Translations under genes and position numbers: made by a program
Assembly (NCBI GenBank): GCA_902518415.1
Contig: CABYGA010000008.1
Span: forward strand, 1-46,523
Length of the DNA: 46,523 nt
DNA from: an uncultured Pelagibacteraceae bacterium
GTDB lineage: Bacteria > Pseudomonadota > Alphaproteobacteria > Pelagibacterales > AG-422-B15
Direction of reading: 5' to 3'
Notes under the pieces: generated by a model
The model's database searches: none
What the model was told of the DNA's origin: nothing
What the model saw: the letters and a program-made list of their open reading frames with translations, nothing else
Shown here: positions 12,240-44,357 of the stretch, piece after piece
Position numbering within the stretch: the first letter of the stretch is position 1
How the letters are laid out: every line of letters starts with the position of its first letter

Positions 12240-12998
12240 TTATTCTCCCATATACGCTTGCTTAACATCTGCGTTTTCTTTTATTTCACTTGGCAAGCCT
12301 GACGCCAATATCTCTCCATAGTTCAATGCTAGGATTCGATCTGAAACTTTGTTTACAAAGCTCATATCGTGTTCAATCATAATTATTGTTATGCCGAGAA
12401 GACTTTGAATGTCTTTTATCCAGAAGCCTAAATCATTTGTTTCTTCATTAGTTAAGCCAGAAGAGGGCTCATCAAGCAATAGTAGTTTAGGAGCAGTGCA
12501 GAGAGCACGTGCTAATTCTACATTTTTTCTTACACCATAGGGAAGGCCATTGATTAGTGTATCCCGGTAGTGTTGCAAATCTAGAAAGTCTATTACTTCT
12601 TCAATTTTTAATCTGTGCTCACGTTCTTGTTGTCTAGTTTTATTTGTAAATAATATTTCAGATAATATATTGGTCTTTTTATAAATATGACGTCCTAACA
12701 ACATATTTTGAAGAACAGTAGCGTTTTCAAATAGTTCTAGATTCTGGAATGTTCTTGCAATACCAAGTGATGAAATGTTATGTGGTTTAATCTTTGAGAT
12801 ATTTTCCCCATCAAAGAAAATTTCACCATTGCTTGGTTCATAGATCCGACTGATTACATTAAAGAGAGTAGATTTACCAGCTCCATTTGGTCCAATGATT
12901 GTAAATATTTCTCCTTTATCAACTGTAAATGAGACATCATTCAATGCCTTTACGCCACCAAAGGAAACAGTAATATTTTTAACTTCAAATAAACTCAT
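12240..12998 (-). CDS. livG: branched-chain amino acid ABC transporter ATP-binding protein LivG
   Basis: A 252-residue ATPase of the HAAT (branched-chain amino acid) importer family. Walker A GPNGAGKST is at 36-44. The signature region is the LivG-type LPYGVRKNVELARAL rather than LSGGQ, and it is followed by Walker B LLLLDEPSSGL and the switch EHDM. It overlaps livM at a single base and is last in the livH-livM-livG operon. The usual partner livF, which normally follows livG, is absent: the next gene is on the other strand. LivG might pair with itself, or LivF may be encoded elsewhere. Confidence 0.92.
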   Translation of the reverse strand: MSLFEVKNITVSFGGVKALNDVSFTVDKGEIFTIIGPNGAGKSTLFNVISRIYEPSNGEIFFDGENISKIKPHNISSLGIARTFQNLELFENATVLQNMLLGRHIYKKTNILSEILFTNKTRQQEREHRLKIEEVIDFLDLQHYRDTLINGLPYGVRKNVELARALCTAPKLLLLDEPSSGLTNEETNDLGFWIKDIQSLLGITIIMIEHDMSFVNKVSDRILALNYGEILASGLPSEIKENADVKQAYMGE

Positions 12999-14071
12999 TA
13001 AACTCTATCCGATTTAGTAAATACTTTTTGTTTCTTGAACGTTTGTTTCTTGTAAGTAGGGAATAGTTGAAAAAATAACTTTATTTTTACCCAACGACCA
13101 TAAATACCTAGGGGTTCATAAAGAATAAATAGAACAAGTATAAGTCCAAAAAGCATAGGCTCTAGTCCTGGCTGTGAACCTATTGAACTTGGCAGATAAT
13201 CTCTGCATATTGCAATTAATTGAGGAAGGTAGCCTACAAAAATTGCTCCAAACACAGTTCCATGTAGACTTCCCATTCCGCCTACAACAATCAAAAGAAG
13301 CAATGTTAGTGATAAGAAGATATTAAAGATGTCTGGCGCTAGATATCCAATGTAGTGGGCGAGCAAAGCTCCGGCTAGTCCAGTAAATGCTCCTGATATA
13401 GCAAACGATAAAGCTTTATATAAACCTAAATTTACTCCAAGGCTTTGGGCGGCAATTTCACTGTCTCTAATTGCCACAAAAGCCCTGCCAGTAGGTGATC
13501 TTAATATATTTATAGCCGCAAACATTGAGAGAATTAAAAAGGCTAGGCAAACATAATAAAAGGTAGCGCTGTCATAGAAACTCATTCCCATAATTTCAGG
13601 CTGAGGCACAGGCATGCCTCTGTTCCCTCCTGTAAAATGTTCCCATTTAATAAAGACATGTTCTGCAATAAAACATAAAGCAAGCGTTGCAATTGCTAGG
13701 TACATGCCTGTTAAACGAAGAATAGGTATGCCTATGAGTGCACCAACCATAAATGAAACTATTACAACTATTGGGATAGAGGCAAAAAATGGAATTCCAT
13801 TTGTTAGCAAAAATGCATGCGTATAGGCTCCTATGCCTAGGAATGCAGCATGACCGAGAGAGGCAAGCCCAGTGTATCCCGATAAGATCATTAACCCAAT
13901 TCCTGCGATAGCCAAAATGCAAACGTAGGAAATCTCTCCTAAATAAAAATCATCAATAAGAAGCGGCATTGTAAGCATTAATACAATTAATAATGAATAC
14001 CAAAAACGATCACCACCGTGCCGTGCAATATTAATATCTTGGGCATAATTTGTTTTAAAAATAAATCTCAT
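12998..14071 (-). CDS. livM: branched-chain amino acid ABC transporter permease LivM
   Basis: A 357-residue permease with 8-10 hydrophobic segments. It has the LivM core GYTGLASLGHAAFLGIGAYTHA, the GNRGM loop, and the cytoplasmic coupling stretch SPTGRAFVAIRDSEIAAQSLGVN, which contacts the ATPase. The C-terminal 25 residues are basic and polar (KKQTFKKQKVF), slightly longer than usual. It overlaps livH at the livH stop base and livG at its first base, so all three are translationally coupled. It forms the membrane channel with LivH for amino acids or amides delivered by periplasmic binders. Confidence 0.92.
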   Translation of the reverse strand: MRFIFKTNYAQDINIARHGGDRFWYSLLIVLMLTMPLLIDDFYLGEISYVCILAIAGIGLMILSGYTGLASLGHAAFLGIGAYTHAFLLTNGIPFFASIPIVVIVSFMVGALIGIPILRLTGMYLAIATLALCFIAEHVFIKWEHFTGGNRGMPVPQPEIMGMSFYDSATFYYVCLAFLILSMFAAINILRSPTGRAFVAIRDSEIAAQSLGVNLGLYKALSFAISGAFTGLAGALLAHYIGYLAPDIFNIFLSLTLLLLIVVGGMGSLHGTVFGAIFVGYLPQLIAICRDYLPSSIGSQPGLEPMLFGLILVLFILYEPLGIYGRWVKIKLFFQLFPTYKKQTFKKQKVFTKSDRV

Positions 14072-14952
14072 TAAACTTTTTTAACTTCAGCTTTATCTGA
14101 AAATAATCCACGAGGATAAATAATTAATGTTAAGATCAATACTAAGTAGGCTGAAATTTCTCTGATGCCTTCGAATAAATAATTTTCATAGGTTCCACAT
14201 AATTGTTCAACTATACCAATGATTATTCCTCCTACAATTGCACCAGGAATAGATCCAAATCCTCCAAGCACTGCGGCGGCAAAAGCTTTTAGTCCAATAA
14301 GTGATATTGATGTATCTACAAGTGTTATCGGCGCAAGCAATACGCCTGCAATGGCGGCTGTTGCAGCAGATATTGACCAAATTAAAGAAAAAATAAATTT
14401 AACTGGGATACCCATATAATATGCTGCTAATTGATTTTCAGAGGACGCACGCATGGCAACACCAATTCTTGATAATGTAAAAAAGAGATAAAGTACTGAA
14501 ACCAAAATAACAGTCCCAATAATGATAGATAAGTTAACATATGAAATAATAAGGCCATTAAACTCAGTTATTTTTCCTGAAAAGGGAGTACTGAATGAAA
14601 AAATATCTGTTCCCCAAAAAATTGATGCAAAACCTCTTAAAATAAAACCTATTCCTATGGTCAACATAACAGTTGCAAACGGAGGCTGGCCGATAATTTG
14701 CCTTACAACGACTGAATCTAGAAAAAATCCAAATACAGCAATAATTACAACAGTTAGAGCGAATCCCATGATGTAATCCATGCCTAGAACACCTATTAAC
14801 GAGAAGGCGACAAAGGCACCGAGCATTAAAATATCACCTTGGGCAAAATTTATAGTTTCTGTTGCTTTATAGATAAGCACAAAACCAAGTGCCACGAGTC
14901 CGTAAATGCATCCTGATGCCACACCATCAATTATTAACTGAATCAATTGCAT
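14071..14952 (-). CDS. livH: branched-chain amino acid ABC transporter permease LivH
   Basis: A 293-residue inner-membrane permease. The N-terminus IDGVASGCIYGLVALGFVLI followed by ETINFAQGDILMLGAF is the LivH hallmark, the coupling helix contains SRIGVAMRASSENQLAAYYMG, and the last helices carry AAVLGGFGSIPGAIVGG. It is first in livHMG. The 170-base gap upstream is divergent with the membrane gene at 15123 and should hold its promoter. No binding protein precedes it, unlike most liv operons. The two binders at the left edge of the window are candidates to serve it. Confidence 0.93.
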   Translation of the reverse strand: MQLIQLIIDGVASGCIYGLVALGFVLIYKATETINFAQGDILMLGAFVAFSLIGVLGMDYIMGFALTVVIIAVFGFFLDSVVVRQIIGQPPFATVMLTIGIGFILRGFASIFWGTDIFSFSTPFSGKITEFNGLIISYVNLSIIIGTVILVSVLYLFFTLSRIGVAMRASSENQLAAYYMGIPVKFIFSLIWSISAATAAIAGVLLAPITLVDTSISLIGLKAFAAAVLGGFGSIPGAIVGGIIIGIVEQLCGTYENYLFEGIREISAYLVLILTLIIYPRGLFSDKAEVKKV

Positions 14953-15122
14953 ATATTAAAAATTTAATAAATTAGTTTAATAAATTTAGTTTATAAAAAA
15001 ACAATATACATTATTTATTCAAACAAGTTATAAAAATTAGCATAATAAAACTAAAAATTAACTTTTCATATTTCGTTATTTCCTAATAATCAGCAGTCAT
15101 AATTAATTAATCGGGGGATTTT

Positions 15123-15917
15123 ATGTTTAAAACTGATGATACGGTTATCAAGATCTGCATGTTTCTTGCTGGCTTGATATTCTTCCTTTATGGAACTGTA
15201 ATGATGTTCAATTACGATTTCATGATAGATAGATACCCAACTTTTGAAGATAATTTAACGACTGAATTTTTTCTAAATTGGTTTGGGGCTATTAATTTTG
15301 TTGCCTATGTTGGAATTTTATATATGGGCTTCAAAGGATTGGACAGAGCATTCTTTGTGTATGCGCTTCCAGTAGTTCTACTTCAATTAATATGGGTGGC
15401 TATGTCTCTGCAACAAAGTGGTGGAGATAATTATACAGGTCTTTATGCATGGATAATTTTATTTGCCTTACTTATCATAGCAAGATTAAGATCAGGCTTT
15501 TCATTCACGTATGAAAGTGCTGGTAGTGCATTTGGAGTTTCAGACAAAGTTACTCAATATATGGGCTATCTTGCGATAGCTATTACTGTATTCAACATTG
15601 TTTTTTATTTTGTTGATCCAGGTGGCTTTATTAGACAGAACCCTTTGTTAGAAAGTAATCCTCAAGCAGAACATAGTGTACTTGGTATCACGATGATAAA
15701 TATAGCAATCCTAATTGCTCTTGTTTATCAGTACCGTGTTGGCCTCAGTGGAGTACTGGTATCAATGAGCGTTGTTGCCGGAACAATGTTCTTAGGCGGT
15801 TTACTTGTTGGTAGCGTTACTTTCCCTGGCGGAGGTGATCCAATACTAGCTTTCTTTATAGTTCTAAATTTTATAATTTATGTAACTATATTTTTCAGAA
15901 ACCAAAGTAATTTTTAG
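15123..15917 (+). CDS. hypothetical membrane protein, duplicated four-helix module
   Basis: A 264-residue integral membrane protein with about eight helices, in two similar halves. Half one (1-122) begins KTDDTVIKICMFLAGLIFF and half two (about 137-262) begins GVSDKVTQYMGYLAIAITVF. Each has a helix, a short periplasmic-type loop, then three more helices. The next gene encodes a single copy of the same module. A GGGGGA sequence just ahead of the ATG may act as an off-consensus ribosome site. The family is unknown to me; the general layout recalls small four-helix families such as DUF4345, but I cannot assign it. Confidence 0.68.
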   Translation: MFKTDDTVIKICMFLAGLIFFLYGTVMMFNYDFMIDRYPTFEDNLTTEFFLNWFGAINFVAYVGILYMGFKGLDRAFFVYALPVVLLQLIWVAMSLQQSGGDNYTGLYAWIILFALLIIARLRSGFSFTYESAGSAFGVSDKVTQYMGYLAIAITVFNIVFYFVDPGGFIRQNPLLESNPQAEHSVLGITMINIAILIALVYQYRVGLSGVLVSMSVVAGTMFLGGLLVGSVTFPGGGDPILAFFIVLNFIIYVTIFFRNQSNF

Positions 15918-15927
15918 GAGGAATATA

Positions 15928-16347
15928 ATGATTAAAATTGAAGATACGATTAGTAGAGTAATAATTTGCTTCCTTATAGTATTATTCCTCTTTTACGGGT
16001 TCATGTTTATTGATGATCAATCAACAATAGCCTTTTCAGAACGTCTTGGCACTGGTTCAGGTGAAGTAGATGCTGCTCACTTACTCTTGTTTGCAAACTT
16101 AGGATGGGTATACATCACATTTGCAATAGGGTTCGTTGCTTGTTTACTTGCGCCATTGGAACAATCGACAGTATTTTTTAGATTGATGCTTGTTGGTTCT
16201 TTCATCACGGCTATACGTCAGATCATCATTTATATGGGTGTAGACGGTGGAGCAAATCCAGTACCGATGGTTGCAAGTATATTAGTTTTTGTTCTCATGA
16301 ATGTTCTATATAGCAGGGCAGGAATGAGGATTGGAACTACGTTTTAA
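15928..16347 (+). CDS. hypothetical four-helix membrane protein, single module
   Basis: A 139-residue protein with four membrane helices (approx. 8-27, 47-71, 80-100 and 110-128). Its N-terminus KIEDTISRVIICFLIVLFLFYG parallels the start of the upstream protein. It is preceded by AGGAGG at 15917-15922, six bases before the ATG, one of the best ribosome sites in the window. It is followed by a clear intrinsic terminator, so it ends the two-gene unit. Strong translation signals suggest these proteins are made in quantity. Function unknown. Confidence 0.68.
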   Translation: MIKIEDTISRVIICFLIVLFLFYGFMFIDDQSTIAFSERLGTGSGEVDAAHLLLFANLGWVYITFAIGFVACLLAPLEQSTVFFRLMLVGSFITAIRQIIIYMGVDGGANPVPMVASILVFVLMNVLYSRAGMRIGTTF

Positions 16348-16370: not shown

Positions 16371-16404
16371 AGGGCTTGAACTTTTAGTTTGAGCCCTTTT
16401 TTTA
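16371..16404 (+). terminator. Rho-independent terminator
   Basis: Arms AGGGCTTGAAC (16371-16381) and GTTTGAGCCCT (16387-16397) pair over 11 positions with two G-U wobbles around a TTTTA loop, followed by a run of T. It ends the two-gene membrane unit on the plus strand. The A-rich flank on the other side is weaker, so it is probably one-directional. Confidence 0.85.
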
Positions 16405-16443
16405 TTTTATTTGTAAAATAATCTATTATTTAGAAACTAAATA

Positions 16444-16677
16444 CTAACAGCAGCCACAAGTTTTTTTACTTGCAGGAGCACTTTTGAGAGCTTTTTTTTC
16501 GGCAAGTAATTCTTTTTCTTTAATTTCATTTTCGGCAAGAAGCTGAGCTTCATTAGCTAGTTTGTCTTCAAAGTACTTTTCTAAACAATCATAGCCAAGC
16601 TTCTTAGCTTTTTTTTCTTCATAGCCTCTTCTGCCTTTGAGATTAGCAATGATGTCAGGTATCGAAATATTTTGCAT
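16444..16677 (-). CDS. hypothetical small protein, coiled-coil with C-terminal CGCC
   Basis: A 77-residue soluble protein. Residues 10-65 are charged and helical, rich in Lys, Glu, Ala and Leu, and include the KKAKKLGYDCLEKYFEDK segment. The C-terminus ends KKTCGCC, so with Cys31 there are four cysteines. A terminal CxCC could bind metal. It lies 79 bases downstream of the DUF3299 gene on the same strand, at the end of the zrg-type zinc operon, so a zinc-related role is possible but unproven. There is no clear Shine-Dalgarno. Family not recognised. Confidence 0.55.
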   Translation of the reverse strand: MQNISIPDIIANLKGRRGYEEKKAKKLGYDCLEKYFEDKLANEAQLLAENEIKEKELLAEKKALKSAPASKKTCGCC

Positions 16678-16755: not shown

Positions 16756-17250
16756 TTACCAGTCAAAAAAGCCGTGAGTTCCAGTTGTTCCTCTATAATA
16801 TTCAACGTCATCGGCTATAAGTTCATATCCAACAACTGCAAGCTCTTCAATGTTATGGTTTTCAATTTTAATCTTGCCTGTAACGTAAACAGGTTCCCAC
16901 CAAGCAAGTCCTTCCCATGGTTTTTTAGTTTCAACATAAACAATCTGATTAGGAGCAGGAGCGGGGACATGTATACATGCTCCAATATAAGGCACAAGCA
17001 AGAAAGTGTTTATCTCTCGTCCAATTATATCTAAGGGTAGAATATACCCTGGTATTCTGACTTCTTTGTCGTCTAATTTTTTGTTAAATTTAACTTCAGA
17101 TGGATTAAACATTGCAGTCCATGGGATTAAGTCTTCCCAATCAATTTCTTTAGGTTCAGATGCGTAAGAAAAGGATGAAAGTAAAATTATTGATGCAAGC
17201 ACTAAACATTTAATGCTTAGAAAAATGCTTTTTGATAGTTTAGTTTTCAT
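16756..17250 (-). CDS. DUF3299 domain protein, exported (zrg-type zinc operon)
   Basis: A 164-residue secreted protein with a signal peptide (1-30, ending SYAS). It matches DUF3299: IDWEDLIPW at 35-43, then RIPGYILPLD, FLLVPYIGACIHVPAPAPNQIVYV in the centre, and WWEPVYVTGKI toward the end. The cysteine and histidine in GACIHVP are candidates for metal binding. The gene overlaps the permease gene by four bases, and it belongs to the DUF2796-ATPase-permease-DUF3299 operon that sits downstream of a Zur box. In Vibrio cholerae a related operon (zrgABCDE) supports zinc uptake. Its exact role is unknown. Confidence 0.83.
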   Translation of the reverse strand: MKTKLSKSIFLSIKCLVLASIILLSSFSYASEPKEIDWEDLIPWTAMFNPSEVKFNKKLDDKEVRIPGYILPLDIIGREINTFLLVPYIGACIHVPAPAPNQIVYVETKKPWEGLAWWEPVYVTGKIKIENHNIEELAVVGYELIADDVEYYRGTTGTHGFFDW

Positions 17251-18497
17251 ATTTTAATCGTCATACCGTCATTAATTGAAAACCAATAGGCTCTAATTGC
17301 AGGGATCAGACTTACCAATGAAGCAGCTATAATAAATAACATAAAAATATAAATATCTTTTACAGCCAGCATTTCAATATTAACTAATATTCCGTAAGTA
17401 TTATCAATCCATGGTTGCAATACGTATAAAGTTAGGAACAGCATAACAGTACTTACAATTATACTCATTACTGAGATAATGAATGCTTCAAGCATTAAAA
17501 GACCTATAACAACTTTAGGTGATGCTCCCATTGCTCTCCAGATAGCCATTTCACGTCTTCTTTCATTCAAGCTTGAAAATATAATGGCCGTCATGCCAAT
17601 GAGTGTTGTAAAAATAACGGTTACGGAGATTCCTAGTAGTAGATTTTCAACCACGCCAACAATCCTCCACAGTTCTTGAAGAGCAACACCAGGTAAAATT
17701 GAACTTAAAGATTCCTCTGGATAATCATTAATCCATCGTTGTAATTGAAATATTTGTAATTTTGAATTTACCCCAATTAATGCTGCTGTGATATTTTTAG
17801 GAGAGAGATCCATCTGACGAATTTCTTCCACGGGAGTAATTTGCCCAGGAATTTTAGCTCCAGTAGACCAGTCTACATGAATAGCTTCAATTGCCTCCAA
17901 GCTTACGATAACTGTATTGTCGACTGGTGTTCCAGTTTTAGCAAGAATGCCTGAAACTCTAAATGGTTGATCGTCGTGATCTGAAAATGATTGTAAACCA
18001 TGAGATACAATGAGTGGAGTGCCCACAGAGTAATTTAGTTTTTCAGCAACACCTGCGCCTATTATGACATCGTATAAGTCATCCAGGTTTTTGCCCTGTT
18101 CCAATTCAATTGATTGTCCACCCCTAAATTTATATCGCTTAAAAAATTCACTATTGGTACCCATAACTCTAAAACCTTTATGACTATCTCCAAGAGAGAT
18201 AGGCACAGACCAAGCAACTTCTTTTTTATTTATAACATCTTCATAACTTTCCCAAGTTATGTTGTTGGTAGCATTTCCAATTCTAAAGACTGAATATAGA
18301 AGTAACTGAACAGAACTCGTTCTTGCGCCAACTATTAGGTCAGTTTGAGAAATCGTATCAGTGAAGCTTGTGTAAGCAGATGTTCTTAACTTTTCAACGC
18401 TCATGTACAACATTAAAGATAAAGATATGGCAAAAACTGTCATAGCAACGGTTAATAATCTTGCATACAAAGAATTGAAGGTAAGTTTTAATAGCAT
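17247..18497 (-). CDS. ABC transporter permease, FtsX/MacB type (zrg-type zinc system)
   Basis: A 416-residue permease with one N-terminal helix (10-32), a periplasmic domain of about 240 residues and three C-terminal helices (approx. 285-315, 330-360 and 380-402). The segment SLNERRREMAIWRAMGAS is the cytoplasmic coupling motif of FtsX-domain proteins such as LolC/MacB. The ATPase gene lies two bases upstream and DUF3299 overlaps downstream. FtsX-type transporters generally extract or release envelope substrates, or transmit force, rather than import ions directly. How such a machine aids zinc acquisition is not obvious from sequence. Confidence 0.86.
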   Translation of the reverse strand: MLLKLTFNSLYARLLTVAMTVFAISLSLMLYMSVEKLRTSAYTSFTDTISQTDLIVGARTSSVQLLLYSVFRIGNATNNITWESYEDVINKKEVAWSVPISLGDSHKGFRVMGTNSEFFKRYKFRGGQSIELEQGKNLDDLYDVIIGAGVAEKLNYSVGTPLIVSHGLQSFSDHDDQPFRVSGILAKTGTPVDNTVIVSLEAIEAIHVDWSTGAKIPGQITPVEEIRQMDLSPKNITAALIGVNSKLQIFQLQRWINDYPEESLSSILPGVALQELWRIVGVVENLLLGISVTVIFTTLIGMTAIIFSSLNERRREMAIWRAMGASPKVVIGLLMLEAFIISVMSIIVSTVMLFLTLYVLQPWIDNTYGILVNIEMLAVKDIYIFMLFIIAASLVSLIPAIRAYWFSINDGMTIKI

Positions 18498-18499
18498 CT

Positions 18500-19201
18500 T
18501 TATTTTTCTTTCACCGAGACATTCTTCATATCTATAACTCTATCAAAGTTAGAGCTTAAAGATTTGTCATGAGAAACCATTAATAAGGTTGAATTGCTGA
18601 TTGCAACTTGAGAAAACATTAAATCCAGAAATATATTTTGAGCGTCTGTATCCAAAGAGGATGTAGGTTCATCTGCTATGACCAATGGAGGATTTCCAAT
18701 TAATGCTCTTGCAACAGCAACCCTTTGTTGTTGACCCACGCTTAATTCACTTGCTTTCATATTAACAACGTCTTCAGGCAAACGTAAAGATTGACAAATA
18801 CTAATTGCGGTTTCTCTTTGATTACTAATGTTTGCTGACCTTAATTTTGAAAAATAAAGTGGCAACAAAATATTATCAATGACATTTGCATATGGGAGTA
18901 AATTAAATTGCTGAAATATAATACCAATGTTATCGGATCTATATTGATCTCTTTTTGTTGCTGATAAGTCATTAATCAGCTTTTCATTCAATTGAATTTT
19001 GCCTGAAAGTGGACTTAAAAATCCACAGATAAGTGAGAGTAGGGTAGTTTTACCTGAACCGCTCTCGCCCAAAAGCAATACTTTTTCTCCTTTGTCGACT
19101 GACAGCTCTGGAATATGAAGTTTAAATTTGCTTTTATTTGACCAATGAAACTTTACAGAATTAATTTGTATCGTTTTTTCATTCAAATTAGATTTTTCCA
19201 T
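18500..19201 (-). CDS. ABC transporter ATP-binding protein, LolD/MacB type (zrg-type zinc system)
   Basis: A 233-residue ATPase. Walker A GESGSGKTT, Q-loop GIIFQQFNLLPY, signature LSVGQQQRVAVARAL, Walker B LVIADEPTSSLD and a switch histidine in LMVSHDKSL are all present, so it should be active. The LLPYANVIDNILLP stretch after the Q-loop is typical of the LolD/MacB class that pairs with FtsX-type permeases. The start overlaps the DUF2796 gene by 14 bases and the stop is two bases from the permease, so the operon is tightly coupled. Predicted to be repressed by Zur when zinc is sufficient. Confidence 0.9.
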   Translation of the reverse strand: MEKSNLNEKTIQINSVKFHWSNKSKFKLHIPELSVDKGEKVLLLGESGSGKTTLLSLICGFLSPLSGKIQLNEKLINDLSATKRDQYRSDNIGIIFQQFNLLPYANVIDNILLPLYFSKLRSANISNQRETAISICQSLRLPEDVVNMKASELSVGQQQRVAVARALIGNPPLVIADEPTSSLDTDAQNIFLDLMFSQVAISNSTLLMVSHDKSLSSNFDRVIDMKNVSVKEK

Positions 19202-19799
19202 CTGTGTTAATTAAAGGCTCATCTCCTTCTACCTCAAAGCTAGTAGACCCCATATTTGAAATAAACTGAACCTCTAACTCACCAGAATTCGTGAAAGTAG
19301 CAAAATAAGGAAAATTTACCTCTTTAATGGCGTTTATATTGCCGCATTCAAATGAATATTTTGCATAAAACTCATTATGATTTTCTTCAGCATACTCATC
19401 ATGGTCATCGTGCTCATCATGGTCATCGTGCTCATCATGGTCATCGTGCTCATCGTGCTCATCATGGTCATCGTGCTCATCTTCTTCCTTTAAAGCAACT
19501 TTCTGACCGTTTAATTCGCAAAGACTATTGCTTGGTAGAGTGAATATATTTGTGTAATCATCAAATGTTTTCAAAGCTTGATTAATTTTAGCAATATCTT
19601 CATCACTTTTTGCTACATATTCAAAACCTACAATATCGGCTCCAGGAATCATAAATTCAAACTCAATTGTCGATCCTTCAACGGCAATATTTAACTCACC
19701 CACGCCATGTTCATGCTTATCAACTTGTCTCGTCTCTTCAGCACTGATTGTAAAAGTCATTAAATTAAATGAGATTAATATATAGATTATGTATTTCAT
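19188..19799 (-). CDS. zrgA: DUF2796 / ZrgA-like periplasmic zinc-binding protein with His/Asp repeats
   Basis: A 203-residue exported protein (signal peptide 1-20). The DUF2796 landmarks are KHEHGVGELNIAVEG (28-42), MIPGADIVGFEY and the LFxLPxxxxCELNG-like TLPSNSLCELNG. About residues 107-140 are a low-complexity run of Asp, Glu and His encoded by exact 18-bp DNA repeats, which should chelate zinc. A second cysteine lies in SFECGN, so a disulfide is possible. It is first in the zrg-type operon, 61 bases downstream of a Zur box. ZrgA of Vibrio cholerae is the closest named relative by family knowledge. Confidence 0.85.
   Translation of the reverse strand: MKYIIYILISFNLMTFTISAEETRQVDKHEHGVGELNIAVEGSTIEFEFMIPGADIVGFEYVAKSDEDIAKINQALKTFDDYTNIFTLPSNSLCELNGQKVALKEEDEHDDHDEHDEHDDHDEHDDHDEHDDHDEYAEENHNEFYAKYSFECGNINAIKEVNFPYFATFTNSGELEVQFISNMGSTSFEVEGDEPLINTDGKI
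19395..19475. repeat. 18-bp tandem repeat coding the His/Asp tract
   Basis: The unit CTCATCATGGTCATCGTG occurs exactly at 19395-19412, 19413-19430 and 19431-19448, then a 9-bp half unit, then again at 19458-19475. On the minus strand it encodes the repeating His-Asp-Asp-His-Asp-Glu tract of the DUF2796 protein. Exact copies suggest recent slippage or unequal crossover, so the length is likely variable between strains. Confidence 0.95.
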
Positions 19800-19860
19800 A
19801 TGAGCCTCTATTTGAAAAAAAAATATATTATCGTTAAAAAAATATTTTATCTAGAGAAAA

Positions 19861-19877
19861 TTGTTATTATATAACAA
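19861..19877 (-). promoter_or_regulatory. Zur box upstream of the zrg-type operon
   Basis: TTGTTATTATATAACAA is a 17-bp palindrome with perfect 7-bp arms (TTGTTAT and ATAACAA). On the minus strand it contains TATAAT (19866-19871), so a bound repressor would block the -10 region. It lies 61 bases upstream of the DUF2796 start and shares its arms with the box between znuC and znuA. The zur gene itself is next door. Confidence 0.8.
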
Positions 19878-19900
19878 TTCAATTAATGGATGATTTTGTC

Positions 19901-20302
19901 TTAAGATGTTTCGCAGGATTTACAAGTACCAAAGAATTCTAGATTGTAGCCGTCAAATTTGATTCCACTATTATCCTTAAAATCTAATAAATATTTAAAG
20001 AGTTTAGGATCATTTATTTCCGAGACTTCATCACAACTATCACATATTGAAAATGCAGTAGCATGAGGTGTTTCACAATCTGAAGTTTTGCATGCAACAA
20101 ATGAATTTTGACTTTCTACTTTATGAATTTTACCAATTTCAATTAACTTATCTAAAGCTCTGTAAACTTGAGGTGGAGCATTGATGCCTTTTTTTTGTAC
20201 ATTAGATAAAATGGAATACGCTTTAACAGGCTTCTTGTTTTTTTGAATGTATTCAAGAATGATCTTTTGATTTTTGGATAGTGGTTTCTGTTTATTTTCC
20301 AT
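19901..20302 (-). CDS. zur: zinc-responsive Fur-family repressor Zur
   Basis: A 133-residue Fur-family regulator. The N-terminal winged helix contains PPQVYRALDKLIEIGKIHKVE (43-63), the standard Fur recognition helix region. The structural zinc site is formed by CDSC (87-90) and CKSC (127-130). Cys71, Cys76 and His80 in the CKTSDCETPH stretch are in the regulatory zinc-site region typical of Zur rather than Fur. It is the third gene of znuC-znuB-zur, so it should be autoregulated through the box upstream of znuC. Targets predicted here are the znu genes and the zrg-type operon. Confidence 0.9.
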   Translation of the reverse strand: MENKQKPLSKNQKIILEYIQKNKKPVKAYSILSNVQKKGINAPPQVYRALDKLIEIGKIHKVESQNSFVACKTSDCETPHATAFSICDSCDEVSEINDPKLFKYLLDFKDNSGIKFDGYNLEFFGTCKSCETS

Positions 20303-20313
20303 TGTTTGCTATT

Positions 20314-21105
20314 TTAATATTTTTTTCTAATTCTGGATAATGATAAAATAAATAAAATTATTGCAACTGTGACAATAGTAGGGCCCGATGATGTATTGAT
20401 TTCGAAGGATGCATAAAGTCCAACAAATACTGACAATAATCCTCCTATAATTGACAAAACAACCATTTGTTTGGGATTATTTGATAAATTACGCGCCATT
20501 GCACATGGAATAATCAGCATCCCAGTTATTAAGAGAAGACCTACCATTTTGATAGAAATTGCAATGAGAGCTGCCAATAAAATTGTAAATATAGCGTTAA
20601 CTCGTTTTGGATTCATGCCTTCAGCTTCAGCCAACTCATAATTTACCGTTGAGGCAAATAAAGGTTTCCATATTAGCCATAATACGAAAAGTATTATTGC
20701 ACCGCCTGCCCATATAATGATCAAGTCATTTACATTTACCGACAGTATATCTCCAAACAGAACTCCCATGATATCAAACCTTATGAATGTTAAAAATCCT
20801 AAGACTACCAACCCAATGGCCAAAGATGAGTGTGAGAGAAGTCCTAGTAGTGCATCGCCTGCTAAATTTGTTGTATTTTGCAATCTCAATAAAATTAATG
20901 CAACTAGTGATGAAACAGCGAATATTGATAGTGAAATGTTTATATCAAATGATATCGATAATATTACACCTAACAATGCTGAGTGCGCCAATGTATCCCC
21001 AAAGAATGAAAGTCTTCGCCAAACAACAAAGCATCCTAGAGGACCAGTAACTATTGCAATTCCAATACCAGCGATCAGTGCCCTAAACAAAAAGTCATCA
21101 AACAT
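20314..21105 (-). CDS. znuB: zinc ABC transporter permease ZnuB
   Basis: A 263-residue inner-membrane permease of the metal ABC-3 family with about eight helices. Family wording is clear: FLFRALIAGIGIAIVTGPLGCFVVWRR at the start, the SFFGDTLAHSALLGV segment, and EAEGMNPKRVNAIFTILLA for contact with the ATPase. It forms the channel for zinc delivered by ZnuA and energised by ZnuC. It lies one base from the znuC stop and 11 bases from zur. Its operon position and the Zur box support zinc rather than manganese as substrate. Confidence 0.92.
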   Translation of the reverse strand: MFDDFLFRALIAGIGIAIVTGPLGCFVVWRRLSFFGDTLAHSALLGVILSISFDINISLSIFAVSSLVALILLRLQNTTNLAGDALLGLLSHSSLAIGLVVLGFLTFIRFDIMGVLFGDILSVNVNDLIIIWAGGAIILFVLWLIWKPLFASTVNYELAEAEGMNPKRVNAIFTILLAALIAISIKMVGLLLITGMLIIPCAMARNLSNNPKQMVVLSIIGGLLSVFVGLYASFEINTSSGPTIVTVAIILFILSLSRIRKKY

Positions 21106-21106
21106 A

Positions 21107-21856
21107 TTATTTTGCTTCTTTCACGATGTTGCCATCTGAGTCATGAACATGGTCATGCTCATGTTCATAGAGAGATAGAAGCTGAGATGATTTTTCTCCA
21201 AAAAGTTCTTTATATTCTTTGTTTTGAGCAACAGCTACTGGCGTTCCTGAGCAACAAACATGCCCATTAAGACAAACGACATAGTCAGTTGCAGACATAA
21301 CAACATGTAGATCGTGTGAAATTAGCAGTATCCCACACTGAAGTGTTTCGGATATTTTTTTTATCAATGCGTATAATTCAACTTCACCTGTAAAATCGAC
21401 ACCCTGTACAGGCTCATCAAGGACCAAAAGGTCTGGTTTCTTTGCAATTGCTCGTGCCAGAAGAACTCTTTGAAATTCACCACCTGATAATTCTCTTAGA
21501 TTATTATTTTTAAGGTGCTCAACGCTTGTTAAGTTAAGAGCATCGTTTATTTCTTGATCTTGAAGGTCCTGAGTTAAGACCATAAAATCAATAACTCTTA
21601 CAGGCAATGTCCAGTCAATTGAAACTTTTTGTGGTACGTAAGAAATTTTATTTGTTAATCTTTCAACAGTGCCCTCAATGTTTTTGTAAAGACCGAGAGC
21701 TATTTTAGCAGTGGTGGTTTTACCTGAACCGTTTGGACCAATTAAAGTAACAATTTTTCCTTTTGTAATATTTAAATTTACACCTTTAACTAGCCATTTG
21801 CCATTCTTATACAATCCGGCATCAGATACTTTTACTAAAAGGTCATTGTCAGTCAT
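21107..21856 (-). CDS. znuC: zinc ABC transporter ATP-binding protein ZnuC
   Basis: A 249-residue ATPase with Walker A GPNGSGKTT, signature LSGGEFQRVLLARAI, Walker B LLVLDEPVQGVD and switch histidine in LLISHDLHVV. The VPQK sequence near residue 70 is typical of metal-ABC ATPases. The C-terminus carries a short histidine-rich tail (YEHEHDHVHDSDG), as in some ZnuC proteins, which may sense or bind zinc. It is first in znuC-znuB-zur and divergent from znuA, with a Zur box in the 72-base gap 24 bases before its start. Confidence 0.92.
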   Translation of the reverse strand: MTDNDLLVKVSDAGLYKNGKWLVKGVNLNITKGKIVTLIGPNGSGKTTTAKIALGLYKNIEGTVERLTNKISYVPQKVSIDWTLPVRVIDFMVLTQDLQDQEINDALNLTSVEHLKNNNLRELSGGEFQRVLLARAIAKKPDLLVLDEPVQGVDFTGEVELYALIKKISETLQCGILLISHDLHVVMSATDYVVCLNGHVCCSGTPVAVAQNKEYKELFGEKSSQLLSLYEHEHDHVHDSDGNIVKEAK

Positions 21857-21879
21857 GAGAAATTGCTTGCTAAATAATT

Positions 21880-21896
21880 TTGTTATAATATAACGC
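21880..21896. promoter_or_regulatory. Zur box between divergent znuC and znuA
   Basis: GTTATAATATAAC at 21882-21894 is a perfect palindrome around one central base, within the 17-bp frame TTGTTAT-AAT-ATAACGC. It overlaps a TATAAT on the plus strand (21884-21889) and a TATATT on the minus strand, so one site can repress both the znuA and the znuCB-zur promoters. The arms match those of the box at 19861-19877. The shape agrees with known proteobacterial Zur operators of the GTTATA-N-TATAAC type. Confidence 0.85.
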
Positions 21897-21928
21897 TATA
21901 CTTAAACTATTATGAAAGCAATATATCT

Positions 21929-23041
21929 ATGAAATTACAACTTAAATTTGGATTAATCTTATCTACTATTTCTCTATTAACGTTTATTTCTTACGCGAAA
22001 GCTGAAACAAAAGTTGTAGCATCAATTAAGCCGATACATTCATTAATTAGTTATGTTATGGATGGAGTAGGAACGCCTGGCTTATTAGTAGATGGCAGCT
22101 CTTCACCACATACTTTTCAATTGAAGCCATCCCACGCAACAATGCTTCAAGAAGCAGATATTGTGTTTTGGATCGGTGAAGACTTGGAGTCATTTCTAGA
22201 GACACCTCTGGAGTCAATTGCAAAAGATGCAAAGCAAGTAACATTGATGGAATCAGAAGATATTGAAATGCTCAAATTTAGGGAAAAAAATGTATTTGAT
22301 GACCATGATGACCATGATGATCATGGAGATGAACATGATGACCATGACGAGCATGACGAACACGAAGAGCACGGCGATGAACATGATGACCATGATGAGC
22401 ACGGCGATGAACATGACGAGCATGATGAGCACGGTGATGAACATGACGAGCATGACGAACACGAAGAACATGGTGACGAGCATGACGAGCACGGTGATGA
22501 ACATGACGAGCACGCACATCATGACGGTCATAACCATGGTGAATTTGACATTCACTTTTGGCTAGATCCAGAAATCGCAAAGACTATTGTTCAAATAGCT
22601 GCAAAAGAAATGTCAGAAATTGATCCTGCAAATGCATCAAAATATGAAGCAAATGCAGCCAAAGCTCTGAATGAACTTGATCAACTTATAAATGATACAA
22701 GAGGCAAGATAAATAAGGATGCCACTTATGTTGTATTCCATGATGCTTATCAATATTTTGAGCAACGTTTTGGAATCGAAGTAATCGGTGCACTAACAGT
22801 AAATCCTGAAGTATTGCCAGGCGCTAAACAGCTTGCTGAAATTAGAGAGGTCATTGAACACGAGGGCGTTAACTGCCTATTCTCTGAGCCTCAGTTTAAT
22901 CCAAGTATTGCTGAAACAATTGCTAGCGACACAGGCGTGAAGGCTGCAGTTCTTGATCCGTTAGGAGCTGAACTAGAGCCTGGAAAAGATCTGTATTTTG
23001 ATCTTATAAGCGATATGGCATCATCATTTGAAAGTTGCTAG
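21929..23041 (+). CDS. znuA: zinc ABC transporter substrate-binding protein ZnuA
   Basis: A 370-residue periplasmic cluster A-I binding protein with a signal peptide (1-25). Predicted zinc ligands are His61 (SSPHTF), His209 (DIHFWLDP), His271 (VVFHDAYQYF) and Asp343 (VLDPLG). Residues 124-203 form an unusually long His/Asp/Glu loop, the region that in ZnuA proteins collects zinc for the binding site. Cys316 and Cys370 correspond to the conserved C-terminal disulfide. It is divergent from znuC under a shared Zur box and followed after 24 bases by a DUF1826 gene. No strong Shine-Dalgarno is visible before the ATG. Confidence 0.94.
   Translation: MKLQLKFGLILSTISLLTFISYAKAETKVVASIKPIHSLISYVMDGVGTPGLLVDGSSSPHTFQLKPSHATMLQEADIVFWIGEDLESFLETPLESIAKDAKQVTLMESEDIEMLKFREKNVFDDHDDHDDHGDEHDDHDEHDEHEEHGDEHDDHDEHGDEHDEHDEHGDEHDEHDEHEEHGDEHDEHGDEHDEHAHHDGHNHGEFDIHFWLDPEIAKTIVQIAAKEMSEIDPANASKYEANAAKALNELDQLINDTRGKINKDATYVVFHDAYQYFEQRFGIEVIGALTVNPEVLPGAKQLAEIREVIEHEGVNCLFSEPQFNPSIAETIASDTGVKAAVLDPLGAELEPGKDLYFDLISDMASSFESC
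22299..22536. repeat. Degenerate GAT/GAC-CAT tandem repeat coding the ZnuA His/Asp loop
   Basis: The DNA consists of variants of a 9-base GATGAACAT / GACGAGCAT / GACCATGAT unit, grouped into longer blocks such as GAGCACGGTGATGAACATGA. It encodes ZnuA residues 124-203. Copies differ mainly at third codon positions, so the tract is older or better purified by selection for protein than the exact repeat in the DUF2796 gene. Long open frames on the other strands here are by-products of the repeat. Confidence 0.9.
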
Positions 23042-23831: not shown

Positions 23832-24551
23832 ATGACGTCAGAATTTACATTATTTGGTTTTCATCATCTAATTTCAATTACATCAATCTTTGCAATTTCA
23901 TTTCTATTTCCTGCATTGGTAAGACTGATTAACAATAAATCAATTACTGAAATAATCTTAATCATCTTAGGAGCTGTATTAATTATCCATGAATTAGCAA
24001 AACCTTTTTACAGGGTTGTTTTTTATGATCATTCTGTTTATGAGGTATTTCCAATACACATTTGTCATATCGCAGCATTATCCATGGGAATTTATATCTT
24101 CACTAAAATTAAATTCTTTTTTGAAGTTGCGTACTTTTTTGGACTAACTGGAAATCTGTTAGCTATGGTAACACCTGATGTTGATTATACCTATCCAGAT
24201 GCTGAATTCATTACATATTACTTTGGTCATGGATTGCTTTTTATGACTGTATTTTATGTATGTATCTGTACCAAAGTGGAATTGACCTGGAGTTCAGTAA
24301 TTAGAGTCTTAGTTTTTGCTGTTTCCTTATTACCATTGATTTACTTGCTAAACCTTTATCTCGTTAGTTATTTTGCTGATGTTAATTACTGGTATTTAAT
24401 GATTACGCCTGCAGCCAACACGCTGTTGGATTTCTTCCCAGCCCCACCATGGCATATACCTTATCTAGCAATATTAGCTCTGATCTTGTTTGTGATGTCG
24501 TATTGGGTGTACTTAGCCCTAATGAGACTAAATAAATTCAAATATCTTTAA
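23832..24551 (+). CDS. TIGR02206 family membrane protein (YwaF-like)
   Basis: A 239-residue integral membrane protein with six to seven helices. Family marks include the start LFGFHHLISI, the HELAKPFYR stretch after helix two, the PIHICHIAAL helix, GLTGNLLAMVTPD, and the closing region NYWYLMITPAANTLLDFFPAPPWHI, which is the most characteristic part of TIGR02206. Histidines inside helices (FHH, HICH, FGHG) are conserved in the family. No function is established. It is monocistronic, and its end overlaps a small convergent gene by 24 bases. Confidence 0.8.
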   Translation: MTSEFTLFGFHHLISITSIFAISFLFPALVRLINNKSITEIILIILGAVLIIHELAKPFYRVVFYDHSVYEVFPIHICHIAALSMGIYIFTKIKFFFEVAYFFGLTGNLLAMVTPDVDYTYPDAEFITYYFGHGLLFMTVFYVCICTKVELTWSSVIRVLVFAVSLLPLIYLLNLYLVSYFADVNYWYLMITPAANTLLDFFPAPPWHIPYLAILALILFVMSYWVYLALMRLNKFKYL

Positions 24552-43946: not shown

Positions 43947-44357
43947 TTAATTCAGAAACTCAAATTTTGATATCGTATAGATTGTTAGAACTGATATTGA
44001 TAAACAAAGAGCCATCCCCCAAATAATATCAAATACAATTATCTGTGTATTAAGCGTGTTAAATACAGCTTTTACAGTAAGCGCGTAAGTCGCGTAAGTA
44101 ACGAGGCCATAAATAATAGAAGGCATTATAATTGATGAAATGCCATTATCTTTGTTTGGCGCTATGACAAAATAAACTAAACCAAATACAAAAATAAAAT
44201 AAAAAATCAATGCAACGGGTATGTTGAAATCTAATTTAACATCTTTAGGTAGGTTTTTTTCATAAACTTTTCTTACAAAAAAACTAATACCTATTAAATC
44301 AATAATAATAAAGTATATAAATGTTGTAATGTATAGCTTAATCATCATAGTTATCAT
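43947..44357 (-). CDS. DUF2177 family membrane protein
   Basis: A 136-residue protein with four membrane helices. The family pattern is visible: a first helix ending FIIIDLIGISFFVRKVYEKNL (D-x-x-G/W and a Y-x-x-x-L), a second helix LIFYFIFVFGLVYFVIAP, GLVTYATYALTVKAVF (the TYATYALTN-like motif), and DIIWGMALC in the last helix. No function is established. It diverges from the HPP-family gene with two bases between the start codons. The first ATG at 44357 is used; two in-frame ATGs follow within 12 bases. Confidence 0.8.
   Translation of the reverse strand: MITMMIKLYITTFIYFIIIDLIGISFFVRKVYEKNLPKDVKLDFNIPVALIFYFIFVFGLVYFVIAPNKDNGISSIIMPSIIYGLVTYATYALTVKAVFNTLNTQIIVFDIIWGMALCLSISVLTIYTISKFEFLN

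Follow-up and report, generated by a model that had tools for sequence, protein, structure and literature searches.

The window analysed here is a stretch of 46,523 nucleotides from an uncultured Pelagibacteraceae bacterium of the SAR11 group, order Pelagibacterales (contig CABYGA010000008.1 of assembly GCA_902518415.1). It contains two adjacent genes, A and B, which comparison with related genomes identifies as a multi-allelic cassette whose site is fixed: relatives with closely similar flanking genes carry strongly diverged versions of both. The initial annotation of the window described A and B as three copies of one membrane module and missed the exchange of alleles, which is the stronger of the two findings. 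The two open reading frames (ORFs) were located correctly in that annotation, and they and the limits of the exchanged segment are the following.

Positions 15123..15917, plus strand: gene A, 264 amino acids, a predicted protein with eight transmembrane (TM) helices in two related four-TM modules, defined from the ORF and an alignment of 29 sequences.
Positions 15928..16347, plus strand: gene B, 139 amino acids, a single four-TM module with helices at residues 7-28, 49-74, 77-103, and 112-130 and a short helix at 30-39.
Positions 12240..14952, minus strand: conserved left flank, used as the backbone marker, with a liv-type ATP-binding cassette (ABC) ATPase (12240), a permease (12998), and a gene (14071) called permease-like by its appearance, Pfam supporting the names of the first two only.
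Positions 14911..15030: left exchange boundary; slightly beyond the point where the liv permease starts (14952), identity to five relatives with the window's backbone and allele class 2, in 60-base windows, drops from about 90% to about 55%.
Positions 16411..16531: right exchange boundary towards these five relatives, beyond which identity is back to about 90%; it lies in the 3' part of the minus-strand gene at 16444-16677.

Five genomes (L081, L092, L094, L096, and L097) are 87-93% identical to the window in nucleotide sequence across the liv flank and 86-99% identical across the right flank. In the same five genomes, the identity of A drops to 48-51% in nucleotides and 36-39% in protein, and that of B to 46-47% and 32%. 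The flanks of L065-L067 have the same range of identity to the window; the A and B proteins of these genomes are 81-84% and 93-97% identical to those of the window. The gene in which the right boundary falls encodes a 77-residue protein that ends in CGCC and has no Pfam match at E<=0.01.

The divergence of A and B is exceptional within the genome. Among 297 syntenic ORF pairs shared with one such relative, the median protein identity is 96.2%, and those of A and B are 38.9% and 32.4%; this control covered 446,523 of the 929,088 bases of the window's genome against 756,337 bases of the relative's, with mechanically called ORFs of at least 80 amino acids. Nine pairs are below 50% identity: A, B, six whose neighbours are also below 50% and which are likely paralogue matches, and one 80-residue ORF with neighbours at 80%. 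No pairs other than A and B combine an identity below 50% with neighbours above 90%. A milder variable gene is a membrane-like ORF of 136 residues at 43947-44357, which is 61% identical to its syntenic counterpart and has neighbours at 92%.

When the window is compared with L065, L066, and L067, A diverges more in its C-terminal than in its N-terminal part, and B has 90-94% DNA identity. Exchange therefore seems to have occurred inside the cassette as well. In L063 (7222-12792), the left flank together with A and B is at least 91% identical in DNA to the window, and the proteins of the three genes compared on the right have an identity of only 69-81%; another exchange boundary thus seems to lie right after B.

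The relationship of the cassette to its surroundings was analysed by a Mantel test on 33 of the 38 loci with A; L064, L074, L083, L093, and L098 were left out because they have no left flank, liv genes, or B. With a chosen threshold of A identity, the 33 loci fall into four classes, which are identical for A and B. Identity between classes is 32-47% for A and 24-44% for B, and within classes at least 48% and at least 56%, respectively. The distances of A and B are correlated with r=0.97, which remains 0.97 when the flanks are partialled out. The correlation with the flank proteins is r=0.18 for A and r=0.15 for B, and that of A with flank DNA is r=0.21.

One backbone carries two classes, and another all four. 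In approximately unbiased (AU) tests, made with quick trees of 20 of the 33 loci and for two groupings, a single clade of backbone I is rejected by the A tree (p-AU 2e-55) and the B tree (6e-46), and a single clade of class 2 by the flank tree (p-AU 3e-68). The comparisons thus show, at the level of sequence, that the cassette has been exchanged between SAR11 lineages and that divergent classes occupy one chromosomal site across them. Backbones I and II seem to have shared class 0 for a long time, as the DNA identity is 68-76% for A, 67-76% for B, and 77-79% for the flanks. The sharing of class 2 between L090 or L095 and L099 looks like a recent transfer, with identities of 90-91% for A and 97% for B, and 78% for the flanks.

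A and B are constant partners, as the initial annotation had anticipated. A is present in 29 of 59 relatives (29 of the 36 within the genus), and B in the same 29. B follows A directly in 74 of the 75 copies of A examined, many of which are the same genomes present in two collections; the 75th copy ends at a contig edge. Genome G063 carries a tandem A-B-A-B arrangement with diverged copies (L100:3171-5808). In a sample of 297 genomes of the order, A was found in 38, all from the family of the window and distributed over three genera. The same liv genes adjoin the pair in 34 of the 38 loci with A, two of the remaining four being cut off on that side. A class-wide search with B covered 385 sampled genomes and turned up no credible B beyond the window's own; one other row (E 0.002, 40 residues inside a 437-residue frame) was rejected as a chance match. 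Locus L098, assigned to a Gammaproteobacteria metagenome-assembled genome (bin9s), has a cut-off copy of A and SAR11-like liv genes that are 81-89% identical to those of the window; it was therefore treated as SAR11, and the bin is probably mislabelled or mixed.

Signals around the genes mark A and B, by their sequence, as a unit of two genes: B is preceded by a strong ribosome-binding site and followed by a terminator-like stem, both of which the initial annotation had noticed. The signals and the modules of A are the following.

Positions 15123..15527, plus strand: N-terminal module of A (A-N), residues 1-135, with helices at 7-29, 45-71, 75-99, and 105-124 and a short helix at 31-37, from profiles and an AlphaFold2 model.
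Positions 15528..15914, plus strand: C-terminal module of A (A-C), residues 136-264, with helices at 142-164, 180-206, 210-233, and 240-263 and a short helix at 168-171.
Positions 15916..15921, plus strand: ribosome-binding site AGGAGG of B, which overlaps the stop codon of A and lies 6 nucleotides upstream of the ATG of B.
Positions 16371..16397, plus strand: terminator-like stem of 12 pairs with a T tail downstream of B, one such element against a shuffle mean of 0.7.

The proposed relationship of the three modules, with similar halves in A and a third copy in B, is borne out by profile-profile alignment with hhalign, for which profiles were built from 19 A and 16 B hand-picked sequences and A was split at residue 135. 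All three pairs align in register. A-N and A-C score 47.7, with an alignment limited to the first half of the module (residues 1-67 on 2-68). The alignments with B span the whole module, with scores of 46.0 for A-N (1-127 on 1-134) and 28.3 for A-C (7-129 on 6-134); the latter is the weakest link, with a probability of 34%. None of 300 shuffles per pair of columns within hydropathy classes attained the real score, the maxima being 25.7 (A-N/A-C), 30.1 (A-N/B), and 24.8 (A-C/B). As a null set, 69 slices were cut from 16 further proteins encoded in the window and assumed to be membrane proteins; the best of them scored 16.1 against A-N, 15.9 against A-C, and 18.2 against B. A separate comparison, made with alignments of 29 rows, led to the same result, with both pairs involving A-C scoring lower. 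The AlphaFold2 models are fairly confident, with a predicted local distance difference test (pLDDT) of 87.4 and a predicted template modelling score (pTM) of 0.86 for A, and 82.0 and 0.74 for B. They agree with the suggested four-helix layout in all three modules: TM1, a short helix, TM2, TM3, and TM4. The charge of the loops suggests that both ends of each module are inside. On the evidence of the profiles, A is a fusion of two modules and B is a third copy of the same module.

Searches of Pfam, NCBIfam, PHROGs, PADLOC, and PDB sequences with A and B gave nothing convincing, and the proteins belong, as far as the libraries searched go, to an undescribed family of small membrane proteins, as the initial annotation had supposed. 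The best weak Pfam matches were to Yip1 (5 of 29 B proteins, best E 0.00053), DUF4064 (PF13273; 8 of 29 B proteins, best E 0.0025), and RseC_MucC (6 of 29 A proteins, best E 0.0063). The B protein of the window scores 16 bits against DUF4064, below the gathering threshold of 32.1. Foldseek searches of the PDB with A and B, and of viral models with A, returned no match at E<=0.001. The A-B pair was not found named in the titles or abstract openings of the papers listed by literature searches, whose coverage is incomplete and no proof that the pair is unreported.

The modules may have a DoxX-like fold, as indicated by a weak match of the models to NACHO/TMEM35A (PDB 9h9e_B), which we take to be DoxX-like. 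A-N aligns with NACHO nearly end to end, over 118 residues of the 133-residue chain, with Z 9.7 and a root-mean-square deviation of 3.5. NACHO has the highest Foldseek probability among the matches listed (0.84) at a non-significant E of 1.5, and it is not the top row by Z: unrelated chains equal or beat it for A, such as 8xqw_O (Z 12.1) and 3d19_C (Z 11.2). Against B, NACHO ranks 21 with Z 6.3, under uroplakin and VKOR, and both the A-N and the B values fall under the safe level of the tool for helical bundles. VKOR, uroplakin, and ferritins among the VIA structural matches were judged to be common helical-bundle matches. Any likeness to the DoxX-like four-TM fold would lie in the structural alignment of A-N; at the sequence level, none of the 29 A and 29 B proteins listed a DoxX family model of Pfam at E<=10, in a search where most matches with E above about 0.1 are removed by the filters of HMMER. 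The DoxX gene of the window (9373) is absent among the five best null slices listed for any module.

Purifying selection acts, by codon comparison, within the classes: the nonsynonymous rate (dN) is lower than the synonymous rate (dS) in every pair with a computable dS, several dS values being saturated. The loops predicted from their charge to be periplasmic are more variable than those predicted to be cytoplasmic, with 1.60 versus 0.96 bits in A and 1.86 versus 1.05 bits in B. The predicted excess of the outer loops is clear in B, where none of 138 circular shifts matched it, and less so in A. The combination of purifying selection within classes and discrete classes across lineages suggests a working membrane complex, each old variant of which is maintained.

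We propose, with a probability of roughly 45%, that A and B are a two-gene replacement island encoding an inner-membrane complex that is kept diverse by balancing selection, perhaps through an antagonist such as a phage. A, the fused pair, and B, the single module, would be the two subunits of a complex built from three paralogous four-helix modules, much like the hetero-oligomer suggested in the initial annotation. They would bind each other, and their alleles would have to match. The antagonist would contact the complex; it would most likely be a phage passing its genome into the cell, or possibly a bacteriocin. The entry of phage DNA can make use of proteins of the inner membrane, for example ManYZ. 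Rare alleles would gain an advantage, several old alleles would persist, and alleles would be swapped by recombination in the conserved flanks. We infer here the contact between A and B, the source of the selection, and their biochemical role. A bolder version, possible though rather doubtful, is that the pair is a balanced-polymorphism locus comparable to the major histocompatibility complex or a compatibility system: a two-subunit membrane gate that phages or bacteriocins would have to use, with cognate alleles that would be older than the lineage splits and traded as sets.

Several points weigh against this proposal. There is no direct sign of a phage, bacteriocin, or ligand, and dN below dS within classes means that there is no sign of positive selection. 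The co-inheritance of genes 10 nucleotides apart can be explained by plain linkage. The weak correlations of A and B with the flanks are significant (p 0.003-0.015; A 0.005, B 0.015), the AU tests are limited to two groupings, and class 2 has a support of 88 in the A tree and is not starred. The variation extends beyond the outer loops, as the TM helices of A are almost as variable (1.46 bits); the difference between the outer and inner loops of A was matched by 7 of 263 circular shifts, and the sidedness of the loops itself depends on their charge. In the nine checked genomes that lack A and B, three of which are less than 60% complete, nothing matched the liv permease at E<=1e-80, and the whole region can therefore be absent. 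In G014, whose contig ends close by, an empty site was not seen.

An unlikely alternative is a complex of A and B for transport, redox reactions, or the handling of lipids, with alleles tuned to different substrates, the classes being ecotype-specific metabolic variants. The liv-type ABC operon adjoins the pair in the loci of genus g1 that have a left flank, as well as in genome G067, and the motifs YMGYKGLDRAFF and YQxRxGxS, predicted to be cytoplasmic, rank with the most conserved stretches of the proteins, which suggests a conserved core function. However, in genus g7 the pair is still together and adjoins a different gene than in g1, and the three g7 genomes with A and B (98, 87, and 72% complete) have no match to the liv permease at E<=1e-20; a functional link of the cassette to the liv operon was set aside for this reason. 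Moreover, the classes mix within one backbone, and the five class 2 loci of backbone I differ from the window, within the compared stretch, only at A, B, and the edges.

It is still less probable that the cassette is a membrane module for anti-phage defence or exclusion, with alleles that differ in phage specificity and turn over as defence genes do. Such a module would share the compact two-gene form, patchy presence, deep allelic diversity, and exchange of A and B. By contrast, the position beside the same liv genes in most loci argues against it, and a PADLOC scan of six proteins gave a single weak match (one of six, E 0.059). The viral contigs searched contained 32 and 19 stretches with the pattern, none of which is a relative, and the phage records searched contained no match. 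That A and B are merely a fast-evolving dispensable locus is very improbable: recombination is reported to be widespread in SAR11 in the parts of two studies drawn on here (PMC12374537, PMC7542561), but the two genes are outliers among the syntenic ORF pairs, are constrained within classes, and form discrete classes common to several lineages.

Other genes in the window include a likely zinc-homeostasis cluster at 16756-23041, which contains a DUF3299 gene by Pfam and genes that from their sequence are presumably ZnuA-like (21929), Fur/Zur-like (19901), and parts of an ABC system. Gene 19188 of the cluster encodes a 203-residue protein with long His/Asp repeats. The gene at 23832-24551, although in a SAR11 genome, strongly matches the family of TMEM164 (PF14808, E 8.9e-36).

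The proposal of an antagonist-driven two-gene island can be compared with the replacement flexible genomic islands of aquatic prokaryotes, for which selection by phages has been proposed (Lopez-Perez et al. 2014, PMC4033161). As those islands are described in the parts of that work considered here, they share with A and B a fixed site, conserved flanks, and the exchange of the whole unit among lineages by homologous recombination. The cassette has the same position, conserved flanks, and different content in close relatives, and the L090/L095 versus L099 comparison and the AU tests point to its exchange between lineages by recombination. It differs from such islands in that their variants have very little or no sequence similarity, whereas the cassette consists of two genes with alleles that are homologous across classes. 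Such islands are also expected to encode an exposed structure, and the predicted eight-TM and four-TM proteins of the cassette may be exposed. The O-chain biosynthesis cluster of Pelagibacterales, the same order, is another replacement island with a phage hypothesis, bounded by rRNA genes according to the sections of PMC11898729 used here; its locus and function are different, and the main text of that paper contains neither "allele" nor "membrane protein". SAR11 bacteria rank with the most abundant cells of the sea, and the reasons for the coexistence of their many strains are debated. A and B may indicate a step of infection at the inner membrane. From the comparisons made, the pair acts as a replacement flexible genomic island would, except that it is a two-gene unit with homologous alleles. 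It is minimal and sharply bounded, far simpler than the usual large islands for surface structures, and is therefore a directly testable locus for diversity maintained by antagonists.
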